A stretch of 36,299 bases of DNA from a virus: positions 1 to 36,299 of the IMG/VR virus record IMGVR_UViG_3300008120_000364; one strand, written 5' to 3'. Under the pieces are notes generated by a model. The model saw only the letters and a list, made by a program, of their open reading frames with translations. It was not told the origin of the DNA and ran no database searches. The stretch's first letter is position 1. Each line of letters starts with the position of its first letter. Shown one piece after another: positions 1,058 to 33,547 of the stretch. The position numbers and the translations under genes were made by a program.

Positions 1058-1431
1058 TACGGCTTACTCGCTTCAATTAAATCAACCACCTTTACAAGGT
1101 AGCCACGGGAAAGGTTAGGAGGAATCTCGCAGGTTATTTCTCTGCCATACTTTCTAACTGCTTCCCATAGAATCTCAGTAGGTAGCATAAGAACAGTACG
1201 ATTAAGAACGAAAGCCCAGTACTCAGCCTCGGTCACAGACAGACCGCTTGGTGCCCACGCATTGGACTTAGTAAAGAAGCAATCGGTTTCAATATAAACA
1301 TTACCGGTGACGTTCCACTTGCGGTCGCGCTTAACCTCAATACGCTTACCTTCAGTAAGTAAGTCAGATACTAACTGCTCACCTTCTTTACCGAAGGAGA
1401 AGTCTAAATCAAAGGAGGATAGGGTAGTCAT
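1057..1431 (-). CDS. PD-(D/E)XK nuclease-like protein
   Basis: A 124-residue protein. Visible signatures are FGKEGEQLVSDLL near the N-terminus (a helix carrying a conserved Glu), then RIEVKRD at about residue 30, an E-x-K catalytic motif of the PD-(D/E)XK fold, and a conserved-looking SGLSVTEAEYWAFVL segment. Such small proteins recur in actinophage replication regions and are presumed nucleases or Holliday-junction-processing enzymes. An Asp between the two motifs is expected but not obvious, so catalysis is inferred. The gene overlaps FmdB by one base and abuts the sigma-like gene. Confidence 0.6.
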   Translation of the reverse strand: MTTLSSFDLDFSFGKEGEQLVSDLLTEGKRIEVKRDRKWNVTGNVYIETDCFFTKSNAWAPSGLSVTEAEYWAFVLNRTVLMLPTEILWEAVRKYGREITCEIPPNLSRGYLVKVVDLIEASKP

Positions 1432-2063
1432 TAGTAAGGAGAATCCCCACCTATCTCGTTCTGTAATTTACGAAGTGCGCTCTGACATCTGCGGTCGGCA
1501 GTAGAGAAGTGGCACTCTAGATACTCAGCCAACTGTTGAAGAGTATGGTTCTCATAGTATCTAAGACGAAGGATATCCTGCTCTTCCTTCTCTAGTTTCT
1601 CATAACCCTTCTTAATATCTACAAGCATAGCCAGTAGGTTGCCACCTTCAGAAGGGGCAGACGGCTTCTTAGGTGTGCCATCATTAACTAATACTTGGCT
1701 CTGTTCTAAAGCAGTATCTAATACAACGGACTTGATTACAAAAGGTAGAAGTTGTGCGATAGTGACTGTGTCATAGTAAGTCTCATCGTTAATCTGATAT
1801 CCAGACTTGGCCGCCTTTTCTTTACGAGCATAGCGTTCTAAGTTTCTTTTAATCTGCCAAGCAATTCGCTTCTCATTCCACTTACGCTGTTGTTCATCAG
1901 GGTCAGAGAGAGATTCATTAAACTGTTCTGCTTTGGATAGCACAAAAGCCCAAGCCTCTTGGAGTAAGTCACCGCGTTCTACAAACTGGCGGTATCTACG
2001 TACAGTTATAGTGACAACAGATGAAACTAAATCATCAAGGACAGGGTGTAGGTAATCAGTCAT
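1431..2063 (-). CDS. RNA polymerase sigma-70-family-like factor
   Basis: A 210-residue protein with two sigma-like regions. Residues about 20-45 (RRYRQFVERGDLLQEAWAFV) resemble sigma region 2. Residues about 152-205 resemble region 4: LEKEEQDILRLRYYENHTLQ, then QLAEYLE as the first helix of the HTH and a second helix ending in ALRKLQNE. The linker of roughly 100 residues carries a charged basic segment. Length fits extracytoplasmic-type sigma factors. GAGGGACA precedes the ATG. It could direct host RNA polymerase to phage promoters, perhaps those of the late unit, but no target sites can be assigned. The start overlaps the endonuclease VII gene by 8 bases. Confidence 0.75.
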   Translation of the reverse strand: MTDYLHPVLDDLVSSVVTITVRRYRQFVERGDLLQEAWAFVLSKAEQFNESLSDPDEQQRKWNEKRIAWQIKRNLERYARKEKAAKSGYQINDETYYDTVTIAQLLPFVIKSVVLDTALEQSQVLVNDGTPKKPSAPSEGGNLLAMLVDIKKGYEKLEKEEQDILRLRYYENHTLQQLAEYLECHFSTADRRCQSALRKLQNEIGGDSPY

Positions 2064-2657: not shown

Positions 2658-3066
2658 TGGGTAGTTCAGGCCAGTTCTTATCTAATACCATAATTGCTAT
2701 GGCTGAATAGTTAAGTAAATCTACAAAAGAATCTCTTAGTGATTCATTAGAAGGCTTGACACCACTATCAAGTAGGTTATTTATTCTTGCTACCTTGTCC
2801 CACATACGGACTCGAAGTCCATTGAGAGGACCGCCAGGTGAGCGAGCCACATTTAATGGGCCGTAGTCTTGGTGCTTACGAAGTAGAAGAGTTCCTGCGG
2901 AATCAAAGACCCGCCACATATCATCTATAAACTTATCATTTACTTTCTTATGGGCATTGGGCGACAGGTTATTGTCCCAGTCTTGTAATCTATCGAGACT
3001 ACTATCATCCCCATATCCGTCAATAATGTTGCTGCCTCTTGTAAGTCCTTTTTCTTGCTCACTCAC
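2650..3066 (-). CDS. DUF1599 / nucleotide-modification-associated (Nmad1) domain protein
   Basis: A protein of about 138 residues. The central part (LLLRKHQDYG, then GLRVRMWDKVARINNLL, then ESLRDSFVDLLNYSAIAIMV) matches the DUF1599/Nmad1 pattern, a helical domain linked to nucleotide or base modification in phages. The substrate is unknown. The frame opens with an ATG at 3081, but GGAAGG lies about 7 bases before a GTG at 3066, which also gives the usual 8-base overlap with the upstream HNH gene, so I prefer GTG. No hypermodification enzyme is recognised elsewhere here, so its partner is missing or outside the window. Confidence 0.65.
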   Translation of the reverse strand: MSEQEKGLTRGSNIIDGYGDDSSLDRLQDWDNNLSPNAHKKVNDKFIDDMWRVFDSAGTLLLRKHQDYGPLNVARSPGGPLNGLRVRMWDKVARINNLLDSGVKPSNESLRDSFVDLLNYSAIAIMVLDKNWPELPND

Positions 3067-3511
3067 TGCCCCACCTTCCATTTCCTTTGCTCAAATTACA
3101 GAACCCGTGAACAGGCCTCACGTTATCTATGGTATCAGAACCGCCTTTAGAAATTGGTACAAGGTGGTCTATTTGCAAGCCGTGTCGCCACCCAGGTTTG
3201 CCTTGAAACCTTGGAGCATTTAAGTCAATAGGATTGCCACATATAAAACAGTCTTTTCCATACATATCAAGAACTTCTTGAAGGGTATATTTTTCAACTT
3301 TATTCCCTCGGATTAAAGCCCTGCGAAGTCTTGCATACGCTGGGTTTTTATCTGGGTGGCGCTGTCTAAATCCTCTCTGAAGACGAGCGTTTCTTTCCCT
3401 ATTGTTTTGCTGATATTCCTTTTGTTGCTTTCTTATCTTGTCTTTATTTTTAAGATAATAAAGTTTCTTTCTAATCTTTATTTTTTCTTGAGGAGTTAGT
3501 TGTTCAGACAC
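3059..3511 (-). CDS. HNH endonuclease (150 aa)
   Basis: A GTG-started protein (8-base overlap with the Toprim gene). Residues 1-70 are very Lys/Arg-rich with a repeated KNKDKIRKQQ / NNRERN character, a likely DNA-binding arm. The C-terminal HNH domain has CFIC (Cys88/Cys91), IDHLVPISKGG (Asp115-His116), N130 and VHGFCN (His135, Cys138). It resembles the HNH protein at 33561-34103 in both arm and domain. Free-standing HNH genes of this type are usually mobile or homing-like nucleases; no intron or split host gene is visible beside it. Confidence 0.9.
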   Translation of the reverse strand: MSEQLTPQEKIKIRKKLYYLKNKDKIRKQQKEYQQNNRERNARLQRGFRQRHPDKNPAYARLRRALIRGNKVEKYTLQEVLDMYGKDCFICGNPIDLNAPRFQGKPGWRHGLQIDHLVPISKGGSDTIDNVRPVHGFCNLSKGNGRWGSE

Positions 3512-4623: not shown

Positions 4624-4975
4624 CATTACTCCTATCGTCTAACCATTGTTCTAAGTCTTGAATAACCCAAGCCTTATTAACTCCGTGTTGTCTTCTCTTT
4701 ACTATGACAAAGGCTGGAGGCGGAAAGGATAGACCTCTAGCCTTCGCATAGTTCTTTGCTTCTGTCTGGGCCTCGTCCCAGAACTCTGGAAGATTCATCG
4801 CTTTACGATTCTTACATTCCAAAATATAGGTCTGACCTGCGATTATGGTGACGATATCACCTTCATCGTTTGACCCTGCCTTGGCCAATCGCTCTGCGAA
4901 ATGACCGAGACTGCGTAGAAACTTCATAACATCAGTCTCAAACTTACTACCCTTGACTTTGTTATACCGACTCAT
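4604..4975 (-). CDS. Hjc-like Holliday junction resolvase / PD-(D/E)XK nuclease
   Basis: Starting at ATG 4975 gives 123 residues with all core features of the archaeal-resolvase-like PD-(D/E)XK fold: Glu13 in the first helix (KGSKFETDVMKFL), Asp40 in DEGDIV, and the E-x-K motif Glu53/Lys55 in YILECKNRK. The C-terminal part (PPPAFVIVKRR, then WVIQDLEQWL) is the usual strand-helix end. The frame is open to 5050, but the extra residues lack domain character and would overlap the DnaB-like gene by far more than the 14 bases seen here. It probably resolves branched replication or recombination intermediates. Confidence 0.8.
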   Translation of the reverse strand: MSRYNKVKGSKFETDVMKFLRSLGHFAERLAKAGSNDEGDIVTIIAGQTYILECKNRKAMNLPEFWDEAQTEAKNYAKARGLSFPPPAFVIVKRRQHGVNKAWVIQDLEQWLDDRSNDANTTR

Positions 4976-5807
4976 AAGTATCATCCATACTATTAGTGTG
5001 AAGCAACGCTCTGCCATCTGCATTGCTATCTGATATTGCACATTGTGCAAACCTCACAAACAAAGTAGTCCACTGTGAAGCATCAGCGTAGTGAGGACCA
5101 AACCGGTTCTTCACAGTGGCTACTCGGAGGTACCCTTGAGACGGGTCGTAACCAAGGGTAAGTATCACAGAGGGTAGTTGCGATACTTTTCCGTGGATAG
5201 CACGACGTGGCGGTGGCATAGTCGGAGAACCATACTCACTGGCTTCGGAGACGTGATGGAGGACAAGGACGCACGCCTCTGTCTTCCTAGCCATATCGTG
5301 CAAGTTCATCATAATATCTCGTAGTCCAGCCCACTCATTGTCGTGTTCTGCAACTACGTTCATAAGATTGTCAATGATAATTAACTCTGGATAGATTCCA
5401 TAAAGTTCTACATAAGCCTTAACTTCTGATTCAATATCATCAAGATTTGGGGATGAATCAAAGACCCATTGAATATGTGAAGCGTCCTGTAACTGTCTGT
5501 CGTAACTCTTTGGATTCTTAAATAGGCTTTGCTCAACTAAGACTTGGTCTTGGTGTGACAAAGCAGAAGCAACTCGTAGTGAAACAGTTGCTATGTCAGT
5601 ATCTGCCGAGAAGAAAAGCGTAGGTATCTTTGCTTTGATTGCATAGACTAAAGCGAACATAGACTTACCTGCGTTAGGTGCAGCAGCAACCATACAGAGT
5701 TGTCCCCTTCGGAACTTAACCTGATTGGCTGACAAGTCTTTCCAAACTTCAGGCAGTGGTTCTGCCTTTATCTGTGTCGTTGCCCAAGCCTTATGTAATC
5801 TAAGCAC
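4962..5807 (-). CDS. DnaB-like / RecA-fold replicative helicase ATPase
   Basis: A 281-residue RecA-fold ATPase. Walker A is APNAGKSM (Lys48), Walker B is LIIIDNL (Asp146), and LVLHHVSE near residue 182 fits the sensor strand of DnaB-family helicases, followed by an Arg-containing VATVKNRFGP region. It lacks the N-terminal primase-interaction domain of full DnaB, so it is a core-only helicase or a DnaB/RepA-like loader. The start is GTG, preceded by GAGAGG, with an 8-base overlap with WhiB. It sits among primase and nuclease genes, consistent with unwinding DNA at the phage fork. Confidence 0.8.
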   Translation of the reverse strand: MLRLHKAWATTQIKAEPLPEVWKDLSANQVKFRRGQLCMVAAAPNAGKSMFALVYAIKAKIPTLFFSADTDIATVSLRVASALSHQDQVLVEQSLFKNPKSYDRQLQDASHIQWVFDSSPNLDDIESEVKAYVELYGIYPELIIIDNLMNVVAEHDNEWAGLRDIMMNLHDMARKTEACVLVLHHVSEASEYGSPTMPPPRRAIHGKVSQLPSVILTLGYDPSQGYLRVATVKNRFGPHYADASQWTTLFVRFAQCAISDSNADGRALLHTNSMDDTYESV

Positions 5808-6066
5808 AACCCTCTCTGCTTTCCCTCGGCAATCTTATTTTGCGTTTGCGACGAACAACTTCTCTATCTGATGCAGTAAGTCCGCCCCAGATTCCAAATC
5901 GTTCTTTATGTATACCCCATTCAGCGCATTCAAATTGATGTGTGCATCTTTTACAGACACTCTTTGCGACACCGATAACTCTATGGTCTGAACCCTGTTC
6001 AGGGAACCAGATGTCACCGTCAACTTCTGCACATAGCGGAGCCTCGTATTGACGTGGCTCGCGCAT
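5800..6066 (-). CDS. WhiB-family iron-sulfur transcription regulator
   Basis: An 88-residue Wbl protein: four cysteines Cys12, Cys38, Cys41 and Cys47 (spacing CxxC...C around VCKRCTHQFEC) for a [4Fe-4S] cluster, the diagnostic GIWGG turn (58-62), and a basic C-terminal DNA-binding tail (RRKRKIRLPR). WhiB proteins are confined to Actinobacteria and their phages, so this is the best host marker in the window. Family members usually bind the primary sigma factor and change promoter choice. No clear ribosome-binding site precedes the ATG; it follows the upstream stop by only a few bases. Confidence 0.92.
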   Translation of the reverse strand: MREPRQYEAPLCAEVDGDIWFPEQGSDHRVIGVAKSVCKRCTHQFECAEWGIHKERFGIWGGLTASDREVVRRKRKIRLPRESREGCA

Positions 6067-6070
6067 TTAT

Positions 6071-6445
6071 CTACGACCAGATTGGTGCGCACTTATCGGT
6101 TGCCCCTTTAGGTGCAGCACATAACCAGCCTTTCCAAGGACCCTTTGCATTGGTCCCAGTCTTATATGTCATTGGTCCGTGTGAGCAAGTTGGTGCCTTG
6201 CCTTCTTCAACTATCGGCGCTGCTGTTGCTGGCGCGGATACTTGCGGTCTCGGTGCGAAATTACGTTGAAAGGTCTTAGCCGGTCCAGCGCTTCCAAGAG
6301 ATTGACTCACACTATGAATCAGTGCTGCCATATCTTGAGTTGATGCAAGTTGTGTTTCAAAATCTGCTGCAGTATCTGCATAGACATTGATTAGTGTTCC
6401 GTCTGCTAACTTAAAGTTAGCCTGAAACTTTGTCGTTTCAGACAT
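6071..6445 (-). CDS. hypothetical protein with C-terminal Cys/His motif
   Basis: A 124-residue protein with a strong AGGAGG ribosome-binding site. The N-terminal half is a small alpha/beta-looking domain (FKLADGTLINVYADTAADFE). An Ala/Pro-rich linker follows (about 65-85), and then a terminal motif with CSHGPM, KGPWKGWLC and KGATDKCAPIW: three cysteines and one histidine that could form a zinc knuckle. Proteins with this ending commonly sit beside the Cas4-like nuclease in actinophages, by recollection. A single-stranded-DNA-binding or recombination accessory role is plausible but unproven. Confidence 0.65.
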   Translation of the reverse strand: MSETTKFQANFKLADGTLINVYADTAADFETQLASTQDMAALIHSVSQSLGSAGPAKTFQRNFAPRPQVSAPATAAPIVEEGKAPTCSHGPMTYKTGTNAKGPWKGWLCAAPKGATDKCAPIWS

Positions 6446-7385
6446 TAGTTCCTCCTATTTGTTTGACTGATATTCTTGTTGATTCTTTTCCTTCTTTACC
6501 AGGAATATATCCTAGTTGTTTTTGTATTTCTTCTTTATCAACAATGAAAGAACCTTTCACCGCTGACCATTGCACTTGGATGCCAGACTTAGTAACGCCG
6601 AGTAATCCAGCAAGCGACTCTTTAAGTCCTTCCTTTCGTTCGGTCAGTTCCTTTATCTTGGCATCCAGTTGCAAATACTCCAGCGCATTTTTATCTGCGT
6701 CGGAATCCTCAATGATTATCTGTTCAGTTTTTGTAAGTTCTTTTTTTAGACCAACGCATCCAATCTCACCAGATGCGTCGTAGTATTTACAATAGAACTT
6801 ACAGTAATTCTCATCCTTCTCAGGTTCTGGTGCTACCTCTGATGTCTTAACAGCCTCTAACCAAGAGAGGGCTTCAAGTGCGACAGAAGAATCGTACTTC
6901 TCTGAGTGGACCTTTATGTCCCGCTCGTCACCGTCTCTTGGTATAGCGACTAAGTGAACGTTCTGAACCTTCCCCAATCCAGACTGTTCGATAAGGTAGC
7001 CGTAGGTTTGCACCTGCCAGCGTTGTTGCAGTGAAGGAAAGTAATTAAGGTTCTTTGCCTTAACTGTTTTCCAATCTACAACATCTCCCGTTTCCGGGAA
7101 ATATGCGTCTACGTGTGCTTTCATTCCATTGTATTCAACGGATGATTCAAGCATCACACCTTCGTGTTTATCTAAAGCCTTCTCAATAGCAGAGTGAATG
7201 GCTGTTCCCATAATGGCAGCCAACTTCAATTCATTCTCATTTGTCTCAGGCTGGTCATTAAGTTTGTACCAGACTTTACGTCGGCATCCACCTAATTCGG
7301 ATGGACCAACCTGTATCTGTGTGGAACGTGGCCGTGCTGCTTCCTTTGCGTGAAGCGCTTTAACTAATAAATCTTTTATGTCCAT
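6438..7385 (-). CDS. Cas4/RecB-type PD-(D/E)XK exonuclease
   Basis: About 315 residues from the ATG at 7385 (preceded by CAGG at a good distance; another ATG lies at 7400). Nuclease motifs: His64 in GTAIHS, Asp93 in HVDAYF, Asp104 and Lys106 in VVDWKT, and Q-x-x-x-Y (Gln124, Tyr128). Cys34 together with Cys195, Cys199 and Cys210 (CKFYCKYYDASGEIGC) matches the iron-sulfur cysteines of Cas4/AddB-type nucleases. A coiled C-terminal region (DAKIKELTERKEGLKESLAG) follows. It likely resects DNA ends for recombination or degrades host DNA. Confidence 0.88.
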   Translation of the reverse strand: MDIKDLLVKALHAKEAARPRSTQIQVGPSELGGCRRKVWYKLNDQPETNENELKLAAIMGTAIHSAIEKALDKHEGVMLESSVEYNGMKAHVDAYFPETGDVVDWKTVKAKNLNYFPSLQQRWQVQTYGYLIEQSGLGKVQNVHLVAIPRDGDERDIKVHSEKYDSSVALEALSWLEAVKTSEVAPEPEKDENYCKFYCKYYDASGEIGCVGLKKELTKTEQIIIEDSDADKNALEYLQLDAKIKELTERKEGLKESLAGLLGVTKSGIQVQWSAVKGSFIVDKEEIQKQLGYIPGKEGKESTRISVKQIGGTNV

Positions 7386-7564
7386 AGTGGAACCTGCCAT
7401 CTTGTAAATGTAATGTTAAAGAAGAGTAACCCAATCTGAAATACAGATGCTTGGTGTTCTCCAACAGGTAAGTTATAGATTTTGTAGAAGTCAAGACCAA
7501 TAGACCAGTTACTCATATAGTGTCGGTTAATATACACCGAGTATCTGACAAAATCTTTTCTCAC
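7376..7564 (-). CDS. hypothetical protein (62 aa)
   Basis: A 62-residue protein from a GTG that overlaps the upstream stop (GTGA) and is preceded by AAGGAG, so translation is likely. It is aromatic and hydrophobic (FVRYSVYINRHYMSNW, later FQIGLLFFNITF), with a beta-strand pattern and no clear membrane helix. The 3' end overlaps the Cas4-like gene by 10 bases from that gene's preferred start. No family recognised. Confidence 0.6.
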   Translation of the reverse strand: MRKDFVRYSVYINRHYMSNWSIGLDFYKIYNLPVGEHQASVFQIGLLFFNITFTRWQVPLWT

Positions 7565-8190
7565 TTAAACTCCTTCTTCTGAGTAACCAACTGTATTGGT
7601 GGGTGAGTATTAACGTCAAGCACCGACGCAAGTTCAACGGCTTTCTGGGCGTGTTGCTCTGGTGTTTTCTTTAGACTAGAAGAAGGTAAGCCAGCAAGAT
7701 AACCAAGAGCGAACTGACCACCCGAGCCAACACCGTAGATTCCCAACTTACTTTGGATGAACGAGAGGTCAATCGCAATGTGGAATAGGTTGCCAGCAAA
7801 CGCGACAAGATAGTCGAACCCTGACTCTTTTTCTTTTGTTGCTTCATAAGGGTCATATCCATTCTCTTTGAAAGCGGTAAGTATTGATGGAAGTATTTTC
7901 TTTCCCATCCACTGCACGGGGTCTGCACCTTTGTATGCGGGCGGAGTCCAGTTATAGGCGAGGATATCTCCAGGTCTTGAATCACCTACGATTCCTAATA
8001 AATACTTTCCGACGTTAACTATCTTCGGAGTTGTCGTACTTATAGTCCTGAGATTATCTTCAGTTATCTGAGAATCGGCTGCTAAGATACAGCGGTCTGG
8101 TAATTGAATTCCAACTAACGTAGTAATCGGCAGTCCTTTCCTTCGGAGAAAAAATTTTACACTACTGCGGCGTGTCTGCTCCGGTGACAC
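7561..8190 (-). CDS. proteasome-beta / HslV-like Ntn hydrolase
   Basis: A protein of the 20S proteasome/HslV superfamily. Counting from the threonine at codon 8124-8122 as Thr1, the sequence begins TTLVGIQLPDRCILAADSQ, with Asp17 in place and a lysine at 34 (Lys33 in classical beta subunits, one residue offset). GIVGDSRPGD, a FDYLVAFAG strand and YGVGSGGQFALGYLAG follow, all family hallmarks. The open frame reaches a GTG at 8190, adding 22 basic residues, but the strong AAGGAAAGGA lies 6 bases before an ATT (8127-8125) immediately before Thr1; an ATT start would give an HslV-like Met-Thr-Thr N-terminus. No alpha subunit or unfoldase partner is seen. First gene of the early unit. Confidence 0.85.
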   Translation of the reverse strand: MSPEQTRRSSVKFFLRRKGLPITTLVGIQLPDRCILAADSQITEDNLRTISTTTPKIVNVGKYLLGIVGDSRPGDILAYNWTPPAYKGADPVQWMGKKILPSILTAFKENGYDPYEATKEKESGFDYLVAFAGNLFHIAIDLSFIQSKLGIYGVGSGGQFALGYLAGLPSSSLKKTPEQHAQKAVELASVLDVNTHPPIQLVTQKKEFK

Positions 8191-8208: not shown

Positions 8209-8538
8209 ATGAGCGTGAGCGAATATATAAGAGGCCGCCTACGGCGTGACCGGCGGCCTCCTAACCGCGAGGCGCTGACGCGCCAAGCCGAGCGGTCTGT
8301 GGTTTTCCGTCTACTCCGGCTGTTGAAAAACAGACCAAGTCTACCGCCAATACAGGCTACTGATTTGCGTTCCGTCGGTCCGACACACTCCTGTGTTTGT
8401 GGATGTACTGTCTTTCTAACCTACGCTCAGTTTGAAGATTATGAAATCTGTTGGTATGCACTAGATGTTGAATGTGCTAACTGTGGCAACCTACTTAAAG
8501 CACCTTGCCCAATAGATAAACCTGAATTTGAGCAATAA
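8209..8538 (+). CDS. zinc-ribbon-like protein, isolated plus-strand gene
   Basis: An open frame of 109 codons lying alone between the two minus-strand units. The C-terminal half looks real: HSCVCGC and later CANCGNLLKAPCP form a four-cysteine zinc ribbon with FEDYEICWYALDVE between. The first ~40 codons are Arg-rich, overlap two GC-rich hairpins (8231-8260, 8271-8284) and lack a ribosome-binding site at ATG 8209, so the true start may be further in, for example at a TTG near residue 39. Function unknown; a regulator or modifier acting early is possible from its position. Confidence 0.6.
   Translation: MSVSEYIRGRLRRDRRPPNREALTRQAERSVVFRLLRLLKNRPSLPPIQATDLRSVGPTHSCVCGCTVFLTYAQFEDYEICWYALDVECANCGNLLKAPCPIDKPEFEQ
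8231..8260. repeat. perfect 9-bp inverted repeat with 12-nt loop
   Basis: GAGGCCGCC (8231-8239) and GGCGGCCTC (8252-8260) flank a 12-base loop TACGGCGTGACC. A smaller hairpin, GGCGC-TGAC-GCGCC, follows at 8271-8284. The element sits between the early minus-strand unit and the isolated plus-strand gene. Its architecture and much of its loop match the hairpin at 36153-36182 in the late-unit leader. Likely a control element; not a terminator, as no U tract follows on either strand. Confidence 0.6.
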
Positions 8539-8570
8539 AAAAAGACCCCCAGGATTTCTCCCAGGGGTCC
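8537..8570 (-). terminator. intrinsic terminator of the late unit
   Basis: Read on the minus strand, a GC-rich hairpin (8544-8570; GACCCC pairs with GGGGTC plus an inner GG/CC pair) is followed by a run of seven T and then ATTG. It lies just downstream of the last lysis gene (stop at 8590) and should end late transcription. The plus strand has only a weak T run, so it is mainly a minus-strand terminator, though it also follows the plus-strand gene's stop directly. Confidence 0.85.
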
Positions 8571-8589
8571 TTGCCTCGCTGCTATTTAA

Positions 8590-8799
8590 CTAATACTTCA
8601 GACCGAACTCTGCTTCAGCCTTGTCTGCCCACTTCACGGCAGGTGCGGTTAGACCGCCGATTAGTACTGCATACTCAGGTGCCAAATCGGTAGCAAATGC
8701 GATACCCATTGTCACTGCTGATGCAAGCACAGCGCGGAGATAAGACTTAAATGCAGCCTTGAACTCTTTGCTTTTTAGTTTCTTGATTAACTTATCCAC
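8590..8799 (-). CDS. putative holin (69 aa)
   Basis: A small protein with a basic amphipathic N-terminus (MDKLIKKLKSKEFKAAFKSY) and two hydrophobic segments, about residues 21-37 and 43-56, separated by an acidic turn (TDLAPEY), then a charged C-terminus. This fits a two-span holin. GTG start, with GGAG just before it and starting directly after the endolysin stop. It would form membrane lesions that let the endolysin reach the wall. It is the last gene of the late unit. Confidence 0.7.
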   Translation of the reverse strand: MDKLIKKLKSKEFKAAFKSYLRAVLASAVTMGIAFATDLAPEYAVLIGGLTAPAVKWADKAEAEFGLKY

Positions 8800-9267
8800 T
8801 TAGTCTCCTTTAGGACTTGGTGTTTCTTTCTTTTTAGCCTTCCTTGAAAGAGCCGCTGTAACCCTGTTCTTCAACTTAGGCTTTTCCATCCAAGCAAACC
8901 AAGGACTTGTATCCTTGGAGTGTTCCGCCTTTATGGAAATATGTAGATGTTTCATATGTAAATTAGAACCAGTGTACTTACGGTCACCTTTATCTTTGGA
9001 CCAGATTCTCCCACTAAAGATTAGGTAGGATACCCGTTTGTCATCCTTCAACTTCTCATAGATATCACCGCAGTCAATACCGTGATGCGGGTCGTGAGTT
9101 AGGTCAGCAGCAAGACCTGTGTTGTGGTCCGAGTTCGGTGATTGCTTTAGGTGCGCAGCAGAAGGTAGGAGTCCATCGCTCGCCTTCATACGCTTGGGTG
9201 CAATGGCAGTTGCCTGTCGCAACACTGCGATGGCAGCAGGACTTGCTACTTTTACGACCTTCTTCAT
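8800..9267 (-). CDS. endolysin, M15-type zinc peptidase
   Basis: About 155 residues from ATG 9267 (ATGA overlap with the upstream stop, GGTGG at good spacing); an ATG 12 bases earlier is less likely. The metal-site pattern of M15/D-Ala-D-Ala-type peptidases is visible: SDHNTGLAADLTHDP supplies His and Asp spaced H-x6-D, and HMKHLHISI supplies the C-terminal His. The tail is Lys-rich (KNRVTAALSRKAKKKE), perhaps a wall-binding or electrostatic segment in place of a binding domain. It should cut peptide cross-links in host peptidoglycan. It lies between two holin-like genes. Confidence 0.82.
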   Translation of the reverse strand: MKKVVKVASPAAIAVLRQATAIAPKRMKASDGLLPSAAHLKQSPNSDHNTGLAADLTHDPHHGIDCGDIYEKLKDDKRVSYLIFSGRIWSKDKGDRKYTGSNLHMKHLHISIKAEHSKDTSPWFAWMEKPKLKNRVTAALSRKAKKKETPSPKGD

Positions 9268-9452
9268 ATTGACCACCATATTCTGATTGTTCCGTTACAT
9301 TCTCCACACACATAAGGCAAGTCGTCCCCATTCTTGTAGTGATTCCTGATTATCTTTGCAGTAGTTTCAAAGTCTGCTTCGTGGGTATCTCTCCCACAAT
9401 GAGGACATACCTCTGCTCCAACGTTCTGATAAACGTGGATGCAATGAGTCAT
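9264..9452 (-). CDS. zinc-ribbon-like small protein (62 aa)
   Basis: Two CxxC pairs, CPHC (about 16-19) and CGEC (about 49-52), separated by a charged helix, fit a small zinc ribbon. It begins MTHCIHVYQNVGAEVC, overlaps the upstream gene by an ATGA and the endolysin by another ATGA, so the three are translationally coupled. Zinc-ribbon genes within phage lysis cassettes are common, but the role is not known. Confidence 0.6.
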   Translation of the reverse strand: MTHCIHVYQNVGAEVCPHCGRDTHEADFETTAKIIRNHYKNGDDLPYVCGECNGTIRIWWSI

Positions 9453-9662: not shown

Positions 9663-11891
9663 TTATACAGAACGAATAGTTACAAGTAATACTCCACCAA
9701 ATCCAGAGAATCGCTTATCCTGCGGTGTCCGGTTGATGAAATCTAGTTCTTCAATGAGTCCAACATAGGACTCTCCTGTTCGGTAATCTTCGATACGGAT
9801 AGTATCTCCAGCATTCTCAACAGATTCTAACTGTTGCATTCTCTGCCAAGCAGACCCTTCATAGCCAACCGCTACACCGAACTTATCTGTCTCGTGGTCA
9901 TAGCAAAGTACTGGATATTGAATTAAACGCTGACGAGGGACAGCAGGCAGAGCCTTAACTTGATAACCAGTAAAGATTGGTGTTGCCGTATCGTCATCAC
10001 CTAAAGTAAAGATAAACTTAAATCCTAGATACTGCTGTGGTGCTGTTGGATATCCAGCGGTAATCTCACCTACAGAATCACCTTGTGAGAAGATACCTAA
10101 ACCATACTCAGTGCCTTCTTGGTCTACAGATTTAACTTCAAGTGAACCATTAGTTGTATCAAACTGTGGCAATACAAACTTAAATCGCTTTAGTTCTAGT
10201 GTGTTATAGCGGATATAACCAGTCTGCAGGTATCCACTAGCGATATAACGAGTAAGGGATTCTATATAAACAGCACCATTAGTTGTCGTTGTGGCGTTAG
10301 TTGTAAACATTAAACGGTCAGTTCCGTCAACAAAAGCACAAGCAGTAGTCTCGTGATTGGTATTGCCAGTAGCCTTATATAGGTCATATGCAAAAGGAAA
10401 TACCAGCGGAGATATCTGAGTGCCAAGGTCAATGCGGATGACTCCTGGTTCATCTTCAACGCTAGTTGCAGCCCAAGCAAATCTATCTCTAAAAGCAAAG
10501 TCATAGACTGGTTGAGTATTTTCCCAAATCAACGGACCATAGGCTAAAGAACCATCATCTGCTACAGCAGCGGCTCTAATACCTTTAGTAGTTCCAATCA
10601 TAATGTAGCCAAGATAGTAAGCAATCTTGTAAATGCGCTCGCCTGATGGCATCTCAGCAGCAGTAATAGCGCTGGTTAGAGTAGGCATAGTTCCGCTAGA
10701 TGAGAGTGTGAACTTCTGGATATTAGATTGAGTTCCAGAAAAGCCTGTGCAGTAGATAGCAGCACCGCTTGATGTGACGCTGGTATAAACAAAGTCATCT
10801 ACTGGATGGGTATAGACAGCAGTAGGTAAAGATGTTGCTGCTGTAGAAATCTCATAAACCTTGTTATTGATACAGGCAACGATACGTTCTTTGGTGAACT
10901 CCATTACCGCATTGGTTACAGTAAGACCTGTAACATCAAACATCTTTACTGTGCTGGTTGGTGAGTCAGTTGAATAGCCAGTCAATGGCTTTTTGTACAT
11001 AGTCAACTTGGTAGTACCACCGCTGGTTACGTTAGTTACCCAGTAGGCGTAGACTCCATCGTCACACATTGCATAAACTTTGTCATCAGTTCCAGAGTTA
11101 TAGTCAACAAAATGCTGAACATTGCTGGTAATAGTTCCTGTTGCTACAGCAGATGGAACATCAGATGCAGTCTTGGCATAGGTCAAAGTGGTTGTAGTAG
11201 GAACTGAAGCAATAGTATATGTTCCGTTGAAGGTAGCATCTACTCCAGCAACTATTATCTCCATACCTACAGCAAGTCCGTGAGCAGGACTTGTGGTCAA
11301 AGTGGCTACGTTAGAGGTCAAAGCCTTGTTAGTTACAGTCGCTGTGATGGTTGGATATATCTTGTCAATATCAAATCCATCAAGCATTAGACAGCCATAG
11401 AACTCGTTATAGGTAGTAGCGCCAGTATTGGTCAACTGCTTCCATTGGATAGACCTGAGAAACTGTTGTGGTCTTAGATTGTCATTGAGATTAGCAGTTG
11501 TGTAATGACCTTCATCTACATCATAAAGAAGAGTTACTTGACCTCTTGTCCAGATATCACAACCCTTTGATTCGGTGTACTGGAAACGAAGTCCTTCATC
11601 CTGAGCAGGTTCAAAGTACTTGATACCTTGACCTAGATGAAATGATGATTGGCTTCTAAACCACCAGCCAGTTAGAGACTGTTCGCCTGCTTCTCTAGTT
11701 TGGTCATACTGTTGCTTACGATACTGAGCAGTAACGCGGCGATACGGAGTATCGTCAGATGCCTGAACAAAGAATGGCAATCCAGCGATAGCAATGTCAT
11801 ACGCCTCGCCAGTGGCTGCATAGTTGATAGAGCCTGCTGGATTAGAAAGTGTATAGGGTATAGCATCGGTTACGTCACTGCCCCAGGGCAT
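9663..11891 (-). CDS. large beta-rich tail protein, possible tail nozzle
   Basis: A 742-residue, Thr/Tyr-rich protein that looks almost wholly beta. Residues about 185-255 form a separate Ig-like or insertion domain (LTTSPAHGLAVGMEIIVAG, NGTYTIASVPTTTTLTY). The following region has repeated short strands with DDGVYAYWV, FVYTSV and FAWAATSVEDEPG, suggesting a propeller-like fold such as the nozzle proteins of short-tailed phages. That assignment is inference from size, fold impression and the absence of a tape measure; it could also be a minor tail or baseplate protein. It follows the fibre genes and precedes lysis. Confidence 0.6.
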   Translation of the reverse strand: MPWGSDVTDAIPYTLSNPAGSINYAATGEAYDIAIAGLPFFVQASDDTPYRRVTAQYRKQQYDQTREAGEQSLTGWWFRSQSSFHLGQGIKYFEPAQDEGLRFQYTESKGCDIWTRGQVTLLYDVDEGHYTTANLNDNLRPQQFLRSIQWKQLTNTGATTYNEFYGCLMLDGFDIDKIYPTITATVTNKALTSNVATLTTSPAHGLAVGMEIIVAGVDATFNGTYTIASVPTTTTLTYAKTASDVPSAVATGTITSNVQHFVDYNSGTDDKVYAMCDDGVYAYWVTNVTSGGTTKLTMYKKPLTGYSTDSPTSTVKMFDVTGLTVTNAVMEFTKERIVACINNKVYEISTAATSLPTAVYTHPVDDFVYTSVTSSGAAIYCTGFSGTQSNIQKFTLSSSGTMPTLTSAITAAEMPSGERIYKIAYYLGYIMIGTTKGIRAAAVADDGSLAYGPLIWENTQPVYDFAFRDRFAWAATSVEDEPGVIRIDLGTQISPLVFPFAYDLYKATGNTNHETTACAFVDGTDRLMFTTNATTTTNGAVYIESLTRYIASGYLQTGYIRYNTLELKRFKFVLPQFDTTNGSLEVKSVDQEGTEYGLGIFSQGDSVGEITAGYPTAPQQYLGFKFIFTLGDDDTATPIFTGYQVKALPAVPRQRLIQYPVLCYDHETDKFGVAVGYEGSAWQRMQQLESVENAGDTIRIEDYRTGESYVGLIEELDFINRTPQDKRFSGFGGVLLVTIRSV

Positions 11892-12330
11892 AGTTCCACC
11901 TTTCTAGGTATTTAATAGCAGATTTAAGAAATTCAGGATTATCCTTGAAGTTCCCTAAAGCAACATTACAGTTATGACAAAGCACCCCTCTAGGTTGAGA
12001 AGTCCTATGGTCGTGGTCTGCGTGAAACTGCCCTCTGCCACCAGGGTTATTGGTCCCACAAATAGCGCAAACATTTCCTTGGTCTTTTAATCTTTCTTCA
12101 TAAAGTCCTGGAGGAAAATTATATTTTTTAGCACGGTTCCAACGTCTACGATTTTCCGTAGCCCTTTGTTTGTTTTCAGGGTTTTGTCTATACCTTATAT
12201 AACGAGGTTTTTCACATTCCTTACAGGAATATCTATAACCTCTTTTGAACTTAGACTCTTTGAAAAAGGAGGTTTTTGGCTTTGACTCGTAACATCTATT
12301 ACAGGTCAACTCGTCGCCATATGGTGCCAC
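11875..12330 (-). CDS. endonuclease VII-like HNH nuclease (151 aa)
   Basis: A GTG-started protein (AGGAG upstream). The first ~50 residues carry two cysteine pairs, CNRCYESK and CKEC, a zinc-binding head found in many phage HNH proteins. The C-terminal endonuclease VII domain has CAIC, FHADHDHRTSQPRGVLC and HNCN, with the family's closing ALGNFKDN...AIKYLE helix. Core ligands are all present, unlike the copy at 2056-2343. It is inserted between a fibre-accessory gene and the large tail gene, overlapping the latter by 17 bases; its position interrupts structural genes, so it is likely a mobile nuclease. Confidence 0.9.
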   Translation of the reverse strand: MAPYGDELTCNRCYESKPKTSFFKESKFKRGYRYSCKECEKPRYIRYRQNPENKQRATENRRRWNRAKKYNFPPGLYEERLKDQGNVCAICGTNNPGGRGQFHADHDHRTSQPRGVLCHNCNVALGNFKDNPEFLKSAIKYLERWNYALGQ

Positions 12331-16503: not shown

Positions 16504-17406
16504 TTAGCGAGTTAGATGGATACGAATTGGGAACTGGTCAGAAAGTTTGAGTGCCTCTTCCTGAAGGCGTTGCTGGAACAAAGCAAAGACATACTTGCTT
16601 ACAGAAGAACCAGCAGATGATGGAATCTTTGTATCATTTAAGTCTGCTTCTGCAGATGATAGGTTGATTCGACCTGCATCCAAGAATGAAAGCAAACGGT
16701 AGCAAGCACCGTAAACAATCACATCTTGGCAAGAATCAGGTAGACCTGTTACATCTACAAAGTCATCAGTATTAGCATCCATAGTATCTGGAACCATTGT
16801 GTACCAAACCTTGATGGTTCTACCTGGTTGGATGTTCTCATAAAGGTTAATAGTCTTTTGAGTATTAAATGTTGGTGTATTTGCTAATGGGTCAAAGCGC
16901 CACTTACGGATAGGTAACCATTCCTTAGAAGAACCTGTGGTTTGCCAAGACATATAAAGAACTTCTCTTGCATCATCAGGTAGTGGATAGGTAACCTGTG
17001 CTGCATTGAAGGTAAAGGTTGTTGAACCTACTGCAAATAACTTTGGGTACAAAGAACGGATAGTATCGTTCAAAGCCTTCTTTATAGTTACTCTAGGAAA
17101 TGTTGGAGATAAAGTCACCTGAGCATATTGGCTATGAGGTGAAGCAGTAGTTCCAAGATATCCTCTTCCAAATCCTGGAGCCACATTAAGAGTGTTGCTT
17201 GACTGAGTAAAATTATCAATCCAGATTAACTCATCATCAATCTCAATAATACCTTTAGCAAGGTTTGACTGAGAGCCGACAGTAATAGCAGACGATGTGG
17301 TCGTCAAACCATTGGCATTGGTTACATAAGTGATACGGTCTTGGCGCAAGGTATAGCCTTGCAGATTACTCTTGACCTCATCTACTAACTGGTCGAACGT
17401 TGGCAT
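16504..17406 (-). CDS. virion connector/tail tube-like protein (300 aa)
   Basis: Opens MPTFDQLVDEVKSNLQGYTL, a helical start typical of phage adaptor or head-tail proteins, with an inserted beta domain (about 30-115; GFGRGYLGTTASPHSQYAQV). A region of strands and helices follows (SLYPKLFAVGSTTFTFNA, LPDDAREVLYMSW, GLPDSCQDVIVYGACYRLL). The last part resembles tail-tube adaptor proteins of short-tailed phages. I assign it as a connector or tail tubular protein from these features and its position between the capsid genes and fibres; a minor tail protein is an alternative. Confidence 0.5.
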   Translation of the reverse strand: MPTFDQLVDEVKSNLQGYTLRQDRITYVTNANGLTTTSSAITVGSQSNLAKGIIEIDDELIWIDNFTQSSNTLNVAPGFGRGYLGTTASPHSQYAQVTLSPTFPRVTIKKALNDTIRSLYPKLFAVGSTTFTFNAAQVTYPLPDDAREVLYMSWQTTGSSKEWLPIRKWRFDPLANTPTFNTQKTINLYENIQPGRTIKVWYTMVPDTMDANTDDFVDVTGLPDSCQDVIVYGACYRLLSFLDAGRINLSSAEADLNDTKIPSSAGSSVSKYVFALFQQRLQEEALKLSDQFPIRIHLTR

Positions 17407-18512
17407 TAGCCCTCCGTTATCTTCTCCTTGGCTTTCTCAATTGCCTCGGCTGCTTTTCCTTTTTCATACCAACCATCGCCCCATAGTGTTAGCAGACGCT
17501 GGAAGTAATATTCATATTGTTTGGCGATAACATCTACGCCATAAGTTTCAACTGCTCTCTTGCGGATAGCAGCCCTATCTAAACTCTTTACATTCTGTGA
17601 AGCCAGAATAAATTCTTCTACGCTTCTACATCTATAGCCAGTAACTCCTTGAACTACAGTCTCTGTAAATGCACCCCAGTCTGTTGTAATTACTGGAGTT
17701 CCACAGGCTTGTGATTCAATGTTTACGTTACCGAATGGTTCTATATAAAGCGTTGGAACAAAGGTAGCGATAGCGCCACCCATAAGTTCTGCTCGCTTCT
17801 CAGGTCCAACAGGTCCGATATACTCACCATAAGTTGGTATGTAATCACCAGGTCCTGCCATAATTAGCCTTGCACCTATTGTCTTGCAGATATGTGCTGC
17901 TACTTCAACACCTTTTCTTGGAACCATTCTTCCAATGTAAAGGTAATAATCTCCGTCCCCTTTACCAAGCGGGAACATATCAGGGTCTAAATATCCTGGA
18001 ATAACTGCATCAAAGAACTGACCATCTACTGTCGCTGCGTTCTTGAATTGTGCATAGACTGCGTGCATCCAAGCGTAAGACTCGAACACTCTGTATTGTG
18101 AAAATACTCCAGAGTATCCAACTCCAAATTCAACAGACATATGAGTTGGAAACGCATCTGCGATTGGCTTATGTGTAGCACCAGCAATCAAGCAGATAAA
18201 GTCTTGGTCTTGAAGTCTCTTACGTATTTCCTTTATTGCATTGCCATTGAACTTCTGCCAGTGTGGAAGTTTGTAATCAAATGGTGCTTCTACATATGGC
18301 TTCTTACCTACAACGATTCTGCGTTGAGTCTCGTTGATGCAAGGTATCAGTTCATCTACATCGGCTTCATTTTCTTCGCCAGCGTATAGATAGACAGTAT
18401 GTCCGAGGGACTTCATCATATTGCAGAACCTGCGAACCTTTTCGGTATATGCGCAGTTTGCATAATCTTTAGTTGTTTGGGTATGTGGTAGACTTACGAC
18501 GTGGAATCTCAT
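17406..18512 (-). CDS. GT-B glycosyltransferase (GT4-like)
   Basis: A 368-residue protein. The C-terminal half carries hallmarks of GT4-type enzymes: YYLYIGRMVPRKGVE with the donor-binding Arg/Lys, RLIMAGPGDYI, then the ExxxxxE stretch EPFGNVNIESQACGTPVITT and GAFTETVVQGVTGYRC. The N-terminal half is the acceptor domain (SLPHTQTTKDYANCAYTEKV). It could glycosylate a virion protein or a cell-surface polymer. Together with the GT25 gene it lies between the collagen-like protein and the connector, so virion glycosylation is plausible. It overlaps the connector gene by one base. Confidence 0.85.
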   Translation of the reverse strand: MRFHVVSLPHTQTTKDYANCAYTEKVRRFCNMMKSLGHTVYLYAGEENEADVDELIPCINETQRRIVVGKKPYVEAPFDYKLPHWQKFNGNAIKEIRKRLQDQDFICLIAGATHKPIADAFPTHMSVEFGVGYSGVFSQYRVFESYAWMHAVYAQFKNAATVDGQFFDAVIPGYLDPDMFPLGKGDGDYYLYIGRMVPRKGVEVAAHICKTIGARLIMAGPGDYIPTYGEYIGPVGPEKRAELMGGAIATFVPTLYIEPFGNVNIESQACGTPVITTDWGAFTETVVQGVTGYRCRSVEEFILASQNVKSLDRAAIRKRAVETYGVDVIAKQYEYYFQRLLTLWGDGWYEKGKAAEAIEKAKEKITEG

Positions 18513-18524
18513 ACCACAATCGTA

Positions 18525-19094
18525 TCAGAAATACAAGTCTTTATAGTCAACCTCTGAGCCTAGCAAGTCGCTATATCCTGGACCTTGGTATATCAGGGTA
18601 GGTCTGGCTACATAGGCAATTACGTCTTTATGTAGGCTGGCATAGTCCACATCTATATGGTTAGTTGGGTTCATACCCGCCTTGATGAGTTTATGGACAA
18701 ACTGCCTCTTGACCGCATAGGCGTGGGTTGAAGAACATTCTAGGCTTCTATACCAGTAGTCATTTACCCGTTGCTTCTGAAGCATATGCGCTCCGAAGTA
18801 CAACATATGCCAATCTTCAGGAACCCAAGCCATAGCCTGTTCAAATTGCTTCTCAAAATCATCTACAAAAACTGCATCATCTTCAAATATAAATATGACT
18901 TCGGACGCATATTTTGTCAATGCTGCTAGATGGCTAAGTTTGCAACCCAGTCTTGGGTCTACCGACTCAATAGCCTGCAGTCTCTCGTATTGAATACCAA
19001 GAGCCTTAGCCTGCTTATCAAATTGTTCTAGTCTGTCTGTTCTTCTATTTAGATTTATTAGTATTGGATTGGGGAAGTAGTCGTTAAACTTCAC
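18525..19094 (-). CDS. glycosyltransferase family 25 protein
   Basis: A 189-residue GT25-type enzyme: [19 protein letters not shown] at the start, [14 protein letters not shown] (the family's G-C-x-x-S-H motif), [15 protein letters not shown] with the metal-binding acidic cluster, and a late [14 protein letters not shown] segment with D-V-D-Y. GT25 includes bacterial lipooligosaccharide galactosyltransferases and animal collagen galactosyltransferases. GTG start overlaps the stop of the collagen-like gene (GTGA), so the two are coupled and the collagen-like protein is a candidate substrate. Somewhat short for the family, but all motifs are present. Confidence 0.87.
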
Positions 19095-20089
19095 ATTCCG
19101 CCAAGGAACATAGATACCGGAATGGCATCTGCTCCAGGTCCCGTTGCACCAGTTGGACCTGTTGCACCAGTGACACCAGTTGCACCGATTGGTCCAGTCG
19201 GACCTTCAGGACCGGTTGCACCTTGAGGTCCGGTAGGACCTGTAGGTCCAGTTACTCCATCGATTCCCGCAGGACCAGTGGCTTCTGTTGCTCCCACAGG
19301 GCCTGTCGCTCCAACAGGGCCTGTCGCTCCTGTTGGGCCAGTCGGTCCGGTAACTCCATCAATTCCTGCTGGCCCTGTAGGACCAGTCGCTCCAGTTGCA
19401 CCAACGTCACCAGCAGGGCCAGTAGCGCCAGCGGGACCAGTAGCACCAGTAGGTCCAACATCTCCAGTTACTCCTTGTGGTCCTGTAGCGCCCGTAGCGC
19501 CTGCCGGACCTGTCGCTCCTATATCACCAGTAGGACCTTGTGGTCCTGTCGGTCCTGTGGCCCCTACAGGGCCTGTAGCACCCACATCTCCTTGCGGTCC
19601 AGTCGCACCTTGTGGACCCGTTGGCCCTGTTGCGCCTGTATCGCCTGGTAAACCTTGTGGACCGGTAGCACCGGTAACACCAGCATCACCCTGTGGTCCT
19701 GTTGGACCGGTCGCTCCTACCGGACCAGTCGGTCCAGTCGCTCCCGTGTCTCCTGCAGGACCTTGAGGTCCTGTTGCACCCGTTGCTCCCGCAGCACCCG
19801 CTGGGCCTGTAGCACCTGTGGGTCCGGTTGCTCCGGTGTCTCCCTGCGGACCTGTAGCCCCAGTCGGACCAGTATCTCCTGTAACACCTTGCGCTCCTGT
19901 CGGACCGGTGGCACCCGTTGCGCCAGTCGCTCCGGTAGCACCTGTAGAACCCGCAGTACCGGTTGCACCAGCAGGACCCGTTGGGCCTGTTGGACCAGTA
20001 ACGCCTTGGATTCCTTGCGGTCCTTGGTCATTAGAAAACTCTATACCTACTTGAGGTGTAATAGATTCAATTACGATAATTGTTGTCAC
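19091..20089 (-). CDS. collagen-like triple-helix virion protein
   Basis: A 332-residue protein. A 22-residue non-collagen head ([20 protein letters not shown]) is followed by about 98 nearly perfect G-x-y triplets (residues 23-318), dominated by GAT, GPT, GPQ and GPA, and then [13 protein letters not shown] at the end. One glycine is replaced (Glu269 in GAT-EAT-GPA), with register kept. There is no lysine anywhere, so hydroxylysine-type glycosylation is impossible; the many Thr residues are the only plausible sugar acceptors. GTG start. Probably a trimeric fibre or head-decoration protein. The complementary strand gives long false open frames. Confidence 0.9.
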
Positions 20090-31393: not shown

Positions 31394-31604
31394 TATTATC
31401 CTCCATCGTCTCTAAATCTTCTGTGAATTGTTCCCAAGCCTGATTAACTTGAGTTTCTCTTATTGCGTTATATGTTGCTAATTCTAAAATCTCATCTGAA
31501 AATGTATGTACTGCTGTCATTAAGTTATGAAAGAATCCTGCTAATACTACAAAGAAATCAGCGAGACGGATAGGGCGTGGAACGTAATCTTGTTTTTTAC
31601 TCAC
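31386..31604 (-). CDS. hypothetical protein with hydrophobic helix (72 aa)
   Basis: GTG start. Residues about 14-34 (LADFFVVLAGFFHNLMTAVH) are hydrophobic and could be a membrane or amphipathic helix. An acidic tail (WEQFTEDLETMEDNNG) follows. Small proteins of this shape near portal genes are common in phages with unknown role. Confidence 0.55.
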   Translation of the reverse strand: MSKKQDYVPRPIRLADFFVVLAGFFHNLMTAVHTFSDEILELATYNAIRETQVNQAWEQFTEDLETMEDNNG

Positions 31605-31629
31605 ACCCTATCCTCTCGATAGATTTTAT

Positions 31630-31764: not shown

Positions 31765-31786
31765 TTAGCACCTCCTTCGGTTATGC

Positions 31787-33547
31787 TCAACCTGCGATTT
31801 GCGCGAGCAAACTTGCTATATCTGGACGAGAGCCAGCAGCAGGGGCCGCACCAGTCATTTGTTCTGGGTTAGGCTGCGAGGCAGGGGCTGGGGCCATACC
31901 TGCTGCTGGAACTTGTGCGCCCATCATTTCTGCTGGGACTTGTGGTTGTTCTTCTGGGGCAAATACTTCATCAACGATTGTTTCAATCGCTTTACCTTTT
32001 TGACGACCCTTGATGACTTCCGCGATTCGGGTAACAATCTGACTAGGGTCTTGACCCTGTGCCGCAAGCGCGGGGATAGCCTGAGCATACTGAGCCATAG
32101 CAACGCGCAAAGAATCACGCATCTCTTCAATGTCAACTCGTTGTTCTTCTTGTGTAACATTTAACTCCATTGGAATCTCACGACGTACATAGTCACGAGA
32201 TACAAGTTTGTCAGAACGCATTTGTAGCAAAGCAATAATTGCACGGTTAGGGTCCATACCGGACATAATTCCGTAGCGTACATCTACACCATATTCGCCA
32301 CCGATAGCCTTAGATGGAACATACTTCATTGAGTATGGTGTGCCATCTTCGCTTCCGCGAATTTCTTTGGTCATATTGCCAAATACTTTTTCATCTACTT
32401 CAAAGCAAAGTGCTACAAGTTCTGTAAACAAACGAGCAAACTGTGCTTGAGCCGAGCGAATCTGTGTATCGAATCCAGCCTGTAGTGCTTGTACACCACG
32501 ACCGGTAACAACCGATGCATCTAATTGACCTGTGCGTACTTCTGGATATCTTGCACCTAGACGTAATTCTCTTTCAAGAACGCCAGACTCAGTAAATACT
32601 CCAGGTGGAAGTTCTAGCGGTACACGGCGAATCGCTTGAGGGTTGGCAGACCGCATAATCGAATCTGGTCCAAGGGCCAGTTCTTGCACATCCTGTGGGA
32701 TTGCAATTGGTGCCTGTATAGATTTTTCTGCCGCTTGTATTTGCAGAACTGCAAAACGTGCGCGAGCCAGTTGTACCGCCAGAACATCGTCGAACTGACC
32801 TCGTGCTTCGCCATCAATAGATGAACGAACAGCAACTGAAGCCAGACATTTACCAAGGACGTTTACTGTCTGTGATAGAACTAGGTTATTGCGCTCTGGG
32901 ATAAATAATAAATCTTGGTCTTTGTCGTGATAACGAACTAGAGTTACATAAGGTGTATTGGCTGGCATCTTGTTTAATGGATAGCCAGCGTTATTAGCAC
33001 CAAGGATTTCTTTGTAGAACTCTGGATATTGTGCTGCTAAAGATTCAGCATCAGTATTTGTAATCTGTGTTAGAGAAATAGTTCTTCCGAATCTATCAAT
33101 CTCTGGATAGACACCAAATGGATTTAGCAAACGGATACGTGGATTGTTGTTCATATAATCCATCTCAACGATTGCTGGCAACATACCGTAGGTATTGAAC
33201 CAGTCAGCACCTGTGTACATCTGAATCTGTAGGTCTGAACCTGAGACGTAATAGTTTGCAATGCGGGTTCTTGTATCAGCAGATTTACGTGCTGCATCTG
33301 AAACCATATTGGTAGCAGAGCATTCAAAGGAAGGTAGTGGTGCCATTGCTTCTGCAAGGTCACGAGCAGCAACGTCAATGAAGTTAGCGACTAGAGGCTT
33401 TGGATATTCTTCAGAAAACATCGCCGGATAAACTTTAGATATGTCGCCCTGTCTAACAGATAAGACACTTCTCATACGCTGGTCACGCGGAGCGTACTTA
33501 GTCTTCAGTCTATCGACTTTAGCGATGACTTCTTTAGTTGATAGCAT
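31787..33547 (-). CDS. portal protein
   Basis: A 586-residue protein directly downstream of terminase and HNH genes. It begins MLSTKEVIAKVDRLKTKYAP and has the familiar portal sequence features: a wing with KPLVANFIDVAARDLAEAMA and YMNNNPRIRLLNPFGVYPEI. The GTGRGVQALQAGFDTQIRSA stem region leads into helices (QFARLFTELVALCFEVDEKV). The acidic/Pro-rich C-terminal part (QVPAEMMGAQVPAAGMAPAP) is a likely barrel extension or tail. It should form the dodecameric ring through which DNA is packed. Confidence 0.82.
   Translation of the reverse strand: MLSTKEVIAKVDRLKTKYAPRDQRMRSVLSVRQGDISKVYPAMFSEEYPKPLVANFIDVAARDLAEAMAPLPSFECSATNMVSDAARKSADTRTRIANYYVSGSDLQIQMYTGADWFNTYGMLPAIVEMDYMNNNPRIRLLNPFGVYPEIDRFGRTISLTQITNTDAESLAAQYPEFYKEILGANNAGYPLNKMPANTPYVTLVRYHDKDQDLLFIPERNNLVLSQTVNVLGKCLASVAVRSSIDGEARGQFDDVLAVQLARARFAVLQIQAAEKSIQAPIAIPQDVQELALGPDSIMRSANPQAIRRVPLELPPGVFTESGVLERELRLGARYPEVRTGQLDASVVTGRGVQALQAGFDTQIRSAQAQFARLFTELVALCFEVDEKVFGNMTKEIRGSEDGTPYSMKYVPSKAIGGEYGVDVRYGIMSGMDPNRAIIALLQMRSDKLVSRDYVRREIPMELNVTQEEQRVDIEEMRDSLRVAMAQYAQAIPALAAQGQDPSQIVTRIAEVIKGRQKGKAIETIVDEVFAPEEQPQVPAEMMGAQVPAAGMAPAPASQPNPEQMTGAAPAAGSRPDIASLLAQIAG

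Follow-up and report, generated by a model that had tools for sequence, protein, structure and literature searches.

The window analysed here, meaning the whole stretch of 36,299 nucleotides of IMG/VR record IMGVR_UViG_3300008120_000364, holds a gene for a protein resembling HslV and proteasome beta subunits. Structural and then presumed lysis genes run leftwards and end at a hairpin (Table 1). The unit opened by the Ntn hydrolase gene continues through an exonuclease, a gp49-like gene, a WhiB-like regulator, a DnaB-like helicase, a RusA-like resolvase, primase parts, a DUF1599 gene, and a sigma factor. An earlier note on this DNA had the gene heading an early unit that lacks an alpha subunit or ATPase. 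This agrees with the leftward replication unit, its own promoter-like element, and the synteny in relatives. The window proteins that were scanned include none recognisable as an alpha subunit, HslU, or another protease ATPase.

Table 1. Coordinates of the Ntn hydrolase gene, its signals and catalytic codons, and its neighbours in the window.
Feature	Position	Strand	Basis or remark
Sigma-factor-like gene	1431..2063	(-)	Far end of the Ntn/replication unit; profile match
DnaB-like helicase gene	4962..5807	(-)	Part of the Ntn/replication unit; profile match
WhiB-like regulator gene	5800..6066	(-)	Marks an actinophage; profile match
gp49-like gene	6071-6445		Matches Phage_gp49 and phrog_364
PD-(D/E)XK (Cas4/RecB-type) exonuclease gene	6438..7400	(-)	Next conserved gene of the Ntn unit; profile match and synteny
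Ntn hydrolase gene	7561..8127	(-)	Met plus 187 residues; Thr1 is the second codon
Gly47 codon (oxyanion hole)	7984..7986	(-)	Within GIVGD; 80-sequence alignment and alignment A3
Lys34 codon	8023..8025	(-)	Equivalent to proteasome Lys33; 80-sequence alignment and A3
Asp17 codon	8074..8076	(-)	80-sequence alignment and alignment A3
Thr1 codon (nucleophile)	8122..8124	(-)	80-sequence alignment and alignment A3
ATT start codon	8125..8127	(-)	Directly before Thr1; 80-gene alignment and forced start in relatives
Shine-Dalgarno-like AAGGAAAGGA	8134..8143	(-)	6 nt before ATT; read from the sequence
TAAAAT, -10-like element	8154..8159	(-)	Of the Ntn gene's own promoter; 26 nt before ATT
Terminator-like hairpin	8541..8572	(-)	Strong, with T-run, after the lysis genes; parts late genes from the Ntn/replication unit
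Presumed holin/lysis genes	8590-9279		Names guessed from sequence, without a named family match
Portal-type gene	31787..33547	(-)	Homology to annotated Streptomyces phage portals

Several other features of the window deserve a record. The interval from the lysis genes to the Ntn gene contains an inverted repeat (AGGCCGCC/GGCGGCCT, 8228-8263) with no adjacent T-run. Four HNH/endonuclease VII-like ORFs are scattered about (2056-2343, 3059-3511, 11875-12330, and 33561-34103), some of them between conserved genes, and a collagen-like repeat protein (19091-20089) stands beside two glycosyltransferase-like genes (17406-19094). The head module includes a 1555-residue protein (26322-30989), possibly an internal virion protein, with one weak PHROG hit and almost no family match.

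The open frame ends at 7561 on the minus strand, and the earlier note had taken it from a GTG (7561-8190); in 74 of 80 genes, translation begins with ATG or GTG directly before Thr1. Starting at 8190 would place a 21-residue leader before I-T-T. Relatives, however, begin at the codon preceding Thr1, some of them with a stop shortly ahead of it, and this GTG is almost certainly the wrong choice. Among the 80 sequences, window included, the codon before Thr1 is ATG (52), GTG (22), ATT (4), or ATC (2). The window is a member of the ATT group and falls in an ATT/ATC subclade with L002, L003, L005, L006, and L008. In L005, L006, and L008, the sixth codon upstream of the ATT is an in-frame TGA and no ATG, GTG, TTG, or CTG intervenes, so ATT must be the start there. 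Similarly, when close viral relatives are searched for with the 188-residue protein, the alignment begins exactly at the codon preceding Thr-Thr. Given the start codon usage of relatives and the AAGGAAAGGA before the ATT, the gene very probably runs 8127..7561 from an ATT adjoining Thr1, which leaves no 21-residue leader.

No propeptide is seen in the start-codon alignment of 80 family genes, and all 14 distant phage homologues examined begin Met/Val/Leu-Thr (Ser instead of Thr in one). Because the start codon directly precedes Thr1, removal of the initiator Met would by itself expose the nucleophile. Of 56 distinct upstream sequences from relatives with ATG or GTG starts, 54 have a TANNNT motif 4-9 nt ahead of the start codon (shuffled controls: mean 4.7, maximum 10), which suggests leaderless transcripts from the Ntn gene's own promoter. 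The ATT/ATC subclade has a longer promoter-to-start spacing than these apparently leaderless relatives, with a ribosome-binding site in between.

Alongside the start, the catalytic residues can be checked against relatives. Thr1, Asp17, Lys34, the GxVGD strand (here GIVGD), and GSGGQFALG are all present as first noted, and T1, T2, D17, S18, K34, G47, and the GxGG glycines do not vary in any of the 80 aligned viral sequences. Loss of Thr1 and the lysine from most related phages had been named as grounds for abandoning the assignment; both are kept in all 80 and also throughout alignment A3, with its 24 diverse members. The dN/dS ratio against five relatives is ~0.08-0.16, and these comparisons indicate an intact gene under purifying selection.

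In profile searches, the window protein matches PHROG 1040 ("peptidase HslV family") at 2e-21 and falls just under the cut-off of Pfam Proteasome (PF00227; 20 vs 22.4 bits). It does not reach the HslV equivalog cut-offs (TIGR03692, 21.6 vs 157.75 bits; NF003964, 23.3 vs 137 bits), does not match the PrcB model TIGR03690, and no second protein of the window matches the proteasome family. A profile of the phage family searched against the PDB ranks BPH (7e-11) and HslV (1e-10) ahead of 20S-beta (2e-6).

The AlphaFold2 model (mean pLDDT 82.9, pTM 0.81) is weak mainly at residues 21-30 and contains both helices 50-59 and 70-88. Its top Foldseek matches in the PDB are HslV, BPH, and 20S subunits, 20S-beta included (E ~1e-9 to 1e-7), with VIA-align Z scores of 16.9 for BPH and 15.3 for HslV; 20S-beta chains score similarly to HslV. 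The predicted fold is thus proteasome-like, with counterparts of the Thr1, Asp17, Lys33, and Gly47 that characterise the superfamily. The H3-H4 hairpin in the window lineage has an HslV-like length, and the pore loop NGYDPYEATKEKESGFDY is long and mixes acidic with basic residues. Taking the PHROG match, the predicted fold, and the invariant residues together, we have very little doubt that the enzyme is an Ntn hydrolase of the HslV/proteasome-beta-like class, as was first proposed.

Gene order around the Ntn gene is kept in 80 relatives to the limits of each contig; in L052 and L074, HNH/endonuclease VII-like homologues are inserted between it and the exonuclease gene. When 80 loci were fetched by their exonuclease, all 56 with >1.3 kb upstream carried the Ntn gene. 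In this window lineage (A), the gene stands behind its own promoter-like element at the head of the replication operon. The first phages to be cultured for 'Ca. Planktophila' (order Nanopelagicales) are OX376640 and OX376641 (PMC10202952), and in OX376641 (ct2KA10, phage LanE43AprF5) a 30% identical relative immediately follows the portal gene. Scanning with this relative brought up lineage B, in which the Ntn gene directly follows a homologue of the window portal in 80/80 loci. There it has a strong GGGGAC-type ribosome-binding site and no adjacent promoter-like element, and in phage F5 it overlaps the next gene; because of this site and overlap, it looks late and coupled. The H3-H4 hairpin is shorter in lineage B than in the window lineage. 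At the corresponding place in the window (31394-31786), two small ORFs lie between the portal gene and the next gene, a basic one of 44 residues and one of ~70 residues that is possibly membrane-associated.

Among 27 long contigs of both lineages, exactly one Ntn copy is found in all but G018, whose contig is broken exactly at the missing interval, so the gene is present in 26/26 long contigs that span the locus. Judged from these contigs, freshwater actinophages of two lineages, which keep the gene at different addresses, have the Ntn enzyme in their core gene set. Each lineage is one clade in the tree (100/99). The tree leaves the A-B relation and the root unplaced and does not separate translocation within one phage family from separate acquisition.

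Phages of Arthrobacter, Microbacterium, Geobacillus, Vibrio, Pantoea, Erwinia, Tenacibaculum, and other hosts carry more distant homologues. Ten phage homologues besides the window protein were tested, and PHROG 1040 was the sole PHROG that each of them matched. The Ntn gene of these distant phages lies mostly among genes of DNA or nucleotide metabolism or other non-structural genes; several stand beside or near genes for thymidylate synthase, dihydrofolate reductase, ribonucleotide reductase, RNase H, or DNA ligase, and these neighbourhoods are usually early regions. In DSL-LC01, it adjoins WhiB. No bacterial chromosomal relative was confirmed in a scan of genome contigs with the family alignment (two patterns only, weak), and 396 Actinomycetota genomes gave only 12 weak, mostly partial matches. 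A PADLOC search returned no match that would make the Ntn protein a defence system.

The position next to the portal invites a structural reading. Many tailed phages have their maturation protease directly after the portal gene, as the Ntn gene is placed in the 80 lineage B loci and in the cultured phage F5, and no other maturation protease is recognised in the window's head module. During head assembly, the enzyme might then take the place of a classical prohead protease and cut the scaffold, the portal, or the 1555-residue protein. However, in the window lineage the gene heads an early unit with its own promoter-like element, distant homologues sit mostly in nucleotide-metabolism regions, and four Streptomyces phages (Beephvirinae) whose homologous portals are 41-43% identical were found to carry no Ntn gene. 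In addition, the major capsid gene has, by eye, no obvious cleavable N-terminal extension. We regard a virion-processing role as unlikely.

The probable host matters for what the enzyme could act on. A host in Nanopelagicales is likely because the phage carries WhiB, has 43.7% G+C, and has a portal half identical to that of the Planktophila phages. Proteasome-family genes (PF00227) are present in 309/393 sampled Actinomycetes genomes; several small genomes without them (1.2-1.4 Mb, 42-48% G+C) fall in one order, which we infer to be the host order, its size and composition fitting Nanopelagicales. Only 3/121 genomes of that order have proteasome-family genes, and matches above cut-off number 2/61 for Mpa and 0/61 for HslU. 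A search of 296 genomes of the order for the portal, as a link from phage to host, found none, a result that carries no information on the host. The premise that Actinobacteria have 20S proteasomes thus fits most sampled genomes of the class but few of the probable host order.

It was on this premise that the phage protein had been suggested to join, replace, or poison host beta rings. The presence of WhiB and the 309 proteasome-bearing genomes speak for that suggestion, but with proteasome-family genes in 3/121 genomes of the probable host order and HslU above cut-off in 0/61, it is left unsupported. Vibrio, Pantoea, Erwinia, Geobacillus, and Tenacibaculum, which are not known to have a 20S proteasome, are also hosts of phages with homologous genes. 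BPH, moreover, is the closest fold by VIA-align, and BPH and HslV precede 20S-beta in the profile comparison. We consider such an action extremely improbable. Since the hosts seem to be without a proteasome, the enzyme probably forms a ring of its own rather than tampering with a host machine.

A self-compartmentalised peptidase, one of the options first listed, is placed here as the leading functional idea. Methionine aminopeptidase would remove the initiator Met and free Thr1, as it does for BPH (PMC5777263). The subunits would assemble into a homo-oligomeric ring, single or double, that encloses the active sites, and early in infection a limited selection of proteins, from host or phage, would be cleaved with no dedicated unfoldase. 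The basis for this is the catalytic set, the start, the promoter-like element, the placement at the operon head, and the single copy in each contig that spans the locus. The terminator-like hairpin after the lysis genes, the replication synteny, the near absence of an Mpa- or HslU-type partner above cut-off in the probable host order, and the mostly non-structural neighbourhoods of the gene in distant phages also count in its favour. On the other side, BPH, the best fold match, is inert on standard substrates (PMC5777263), the late, morphogenesis-region placement in lineage B is not explained by a purely early role, the AlphaFold2 model is weak at residues 21-30, and the host order is inferred. 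For the whole mechanism, that is, an early-expressed, self-assembling, unfoldase-independent and phage-specific Thr peptidase of the HslV/BPH group, we put the chances at about even.

Two other uses of the same fold should be weighed. The enzyme could be a proteolytic core fed by a host AAA+ unfoldase such as ClpX or ClpC, which would redirect host protein degradation. Its H3-H4 hairpin in the window lineage is HslV-like in length, and the probable host order has AAA+ genes, seen as sub-threshold matches in open frames of ~440 and ~700 residues that are ClpX- and FtsH-like by length only. Yet no unfoldase is encoded near the Ntn gene, no docking motif is demonstrated, and Clp ATPases pair with ClpP, whose fold is unrelated; we think a borrowed unfoldase improbable. 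Connectase is proof that the Ntn fold can turn into a protein ligase (PMC8665760), and the phage enzyme could be a specific ligase or transpeptidase of that kind, or an amidase. The full proteasomal catalytic set and the compact core without insertions resemble the HslV/BPH group instead, and different chemistry seems to us less probable still.

Comparison with known systems shows where this enzyme stands. Phage HslV-like peptidases are already catalogued: the window protein belongs to PHROG 1040, whose annotation rests on homology only. BPH (PDB 5ovt/5ovu) is the best structural match (Z 16.9, 24% identity). It has no propeptide, loses its Met, forms a double ring without a dedicated unfoldase, and has a Thr1 that reacts with epoxomicin, yet is inert on standard substrates (PMC5777263). 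It differs in being a betaproteobacterial chromosomal protein with a very acidic pore loop, in contrast to the mixed charges of NGYDPYEATKEKESGFDY. HslV shares the Met-Thr-Thr start, the GSGG motif, the H3-H4 spacing, and a Z of 15.3, but the window protein is far under the equivalog cut-offs (21.6-23.3 vs 137-158 bits), and HslU is neither recognised in the window nor above cut-off in the probable host order (0/61). From 20S beta (PrcB), it is set apart by the lack of a TIGR03690 match, of a propeptide, and of a second proteasome-family match in the window.

The 22 new proteasome homologues listed by Fuchs et al. (2021; PMC8665760) include the phage-borne PPH and AAH. These group I proteins are likewise compact subunits without a propeptide that are spread by phages; PPH, however, has ~140 residues and no helix H2, unlike the 188 residues and both helices here, and no Actinobacteria-specific phage with AAH was reported (PMC8665760). 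The Planktophila phages E7 and F5 (OX376640/OX376641, PMC10202952) have a homologous terminase, portal, and Ntn family member, but with the enzyme directly after the portal, a shorter H3-H4 hairpin, and a strong ribosome-binding site.

In the literature searched, we found no description of these lake-actinophage lineages with their fixed Ntn addresses and no report of a function for any phage proteasome homologue. What is new here is that lake actinophages have the gene in their core set, that it stands at one of two addresses, and that the host probably has no proteasome. At its boldest, and very tentatively, the comparison would point to a self-assembling, unfoldase-independent Thr peptidase that is essential in phages of the most abundant freshwater actinobacteria, supplying a proteasome-like compartment to cells that have none, with a second, late role beside the portal in the sister lineage. 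Because the enzyme is a core gene, has cultured relatives, and serves phages of a probable host order with no proteasome or HslUV that could blur an assay, the role of phage proteasome homologues becomes directly testable. The cultured relatives are available on a growing host, Planktophila LanE-43, and the two addresses allow early and late use of one enzyme to be compared in nature.
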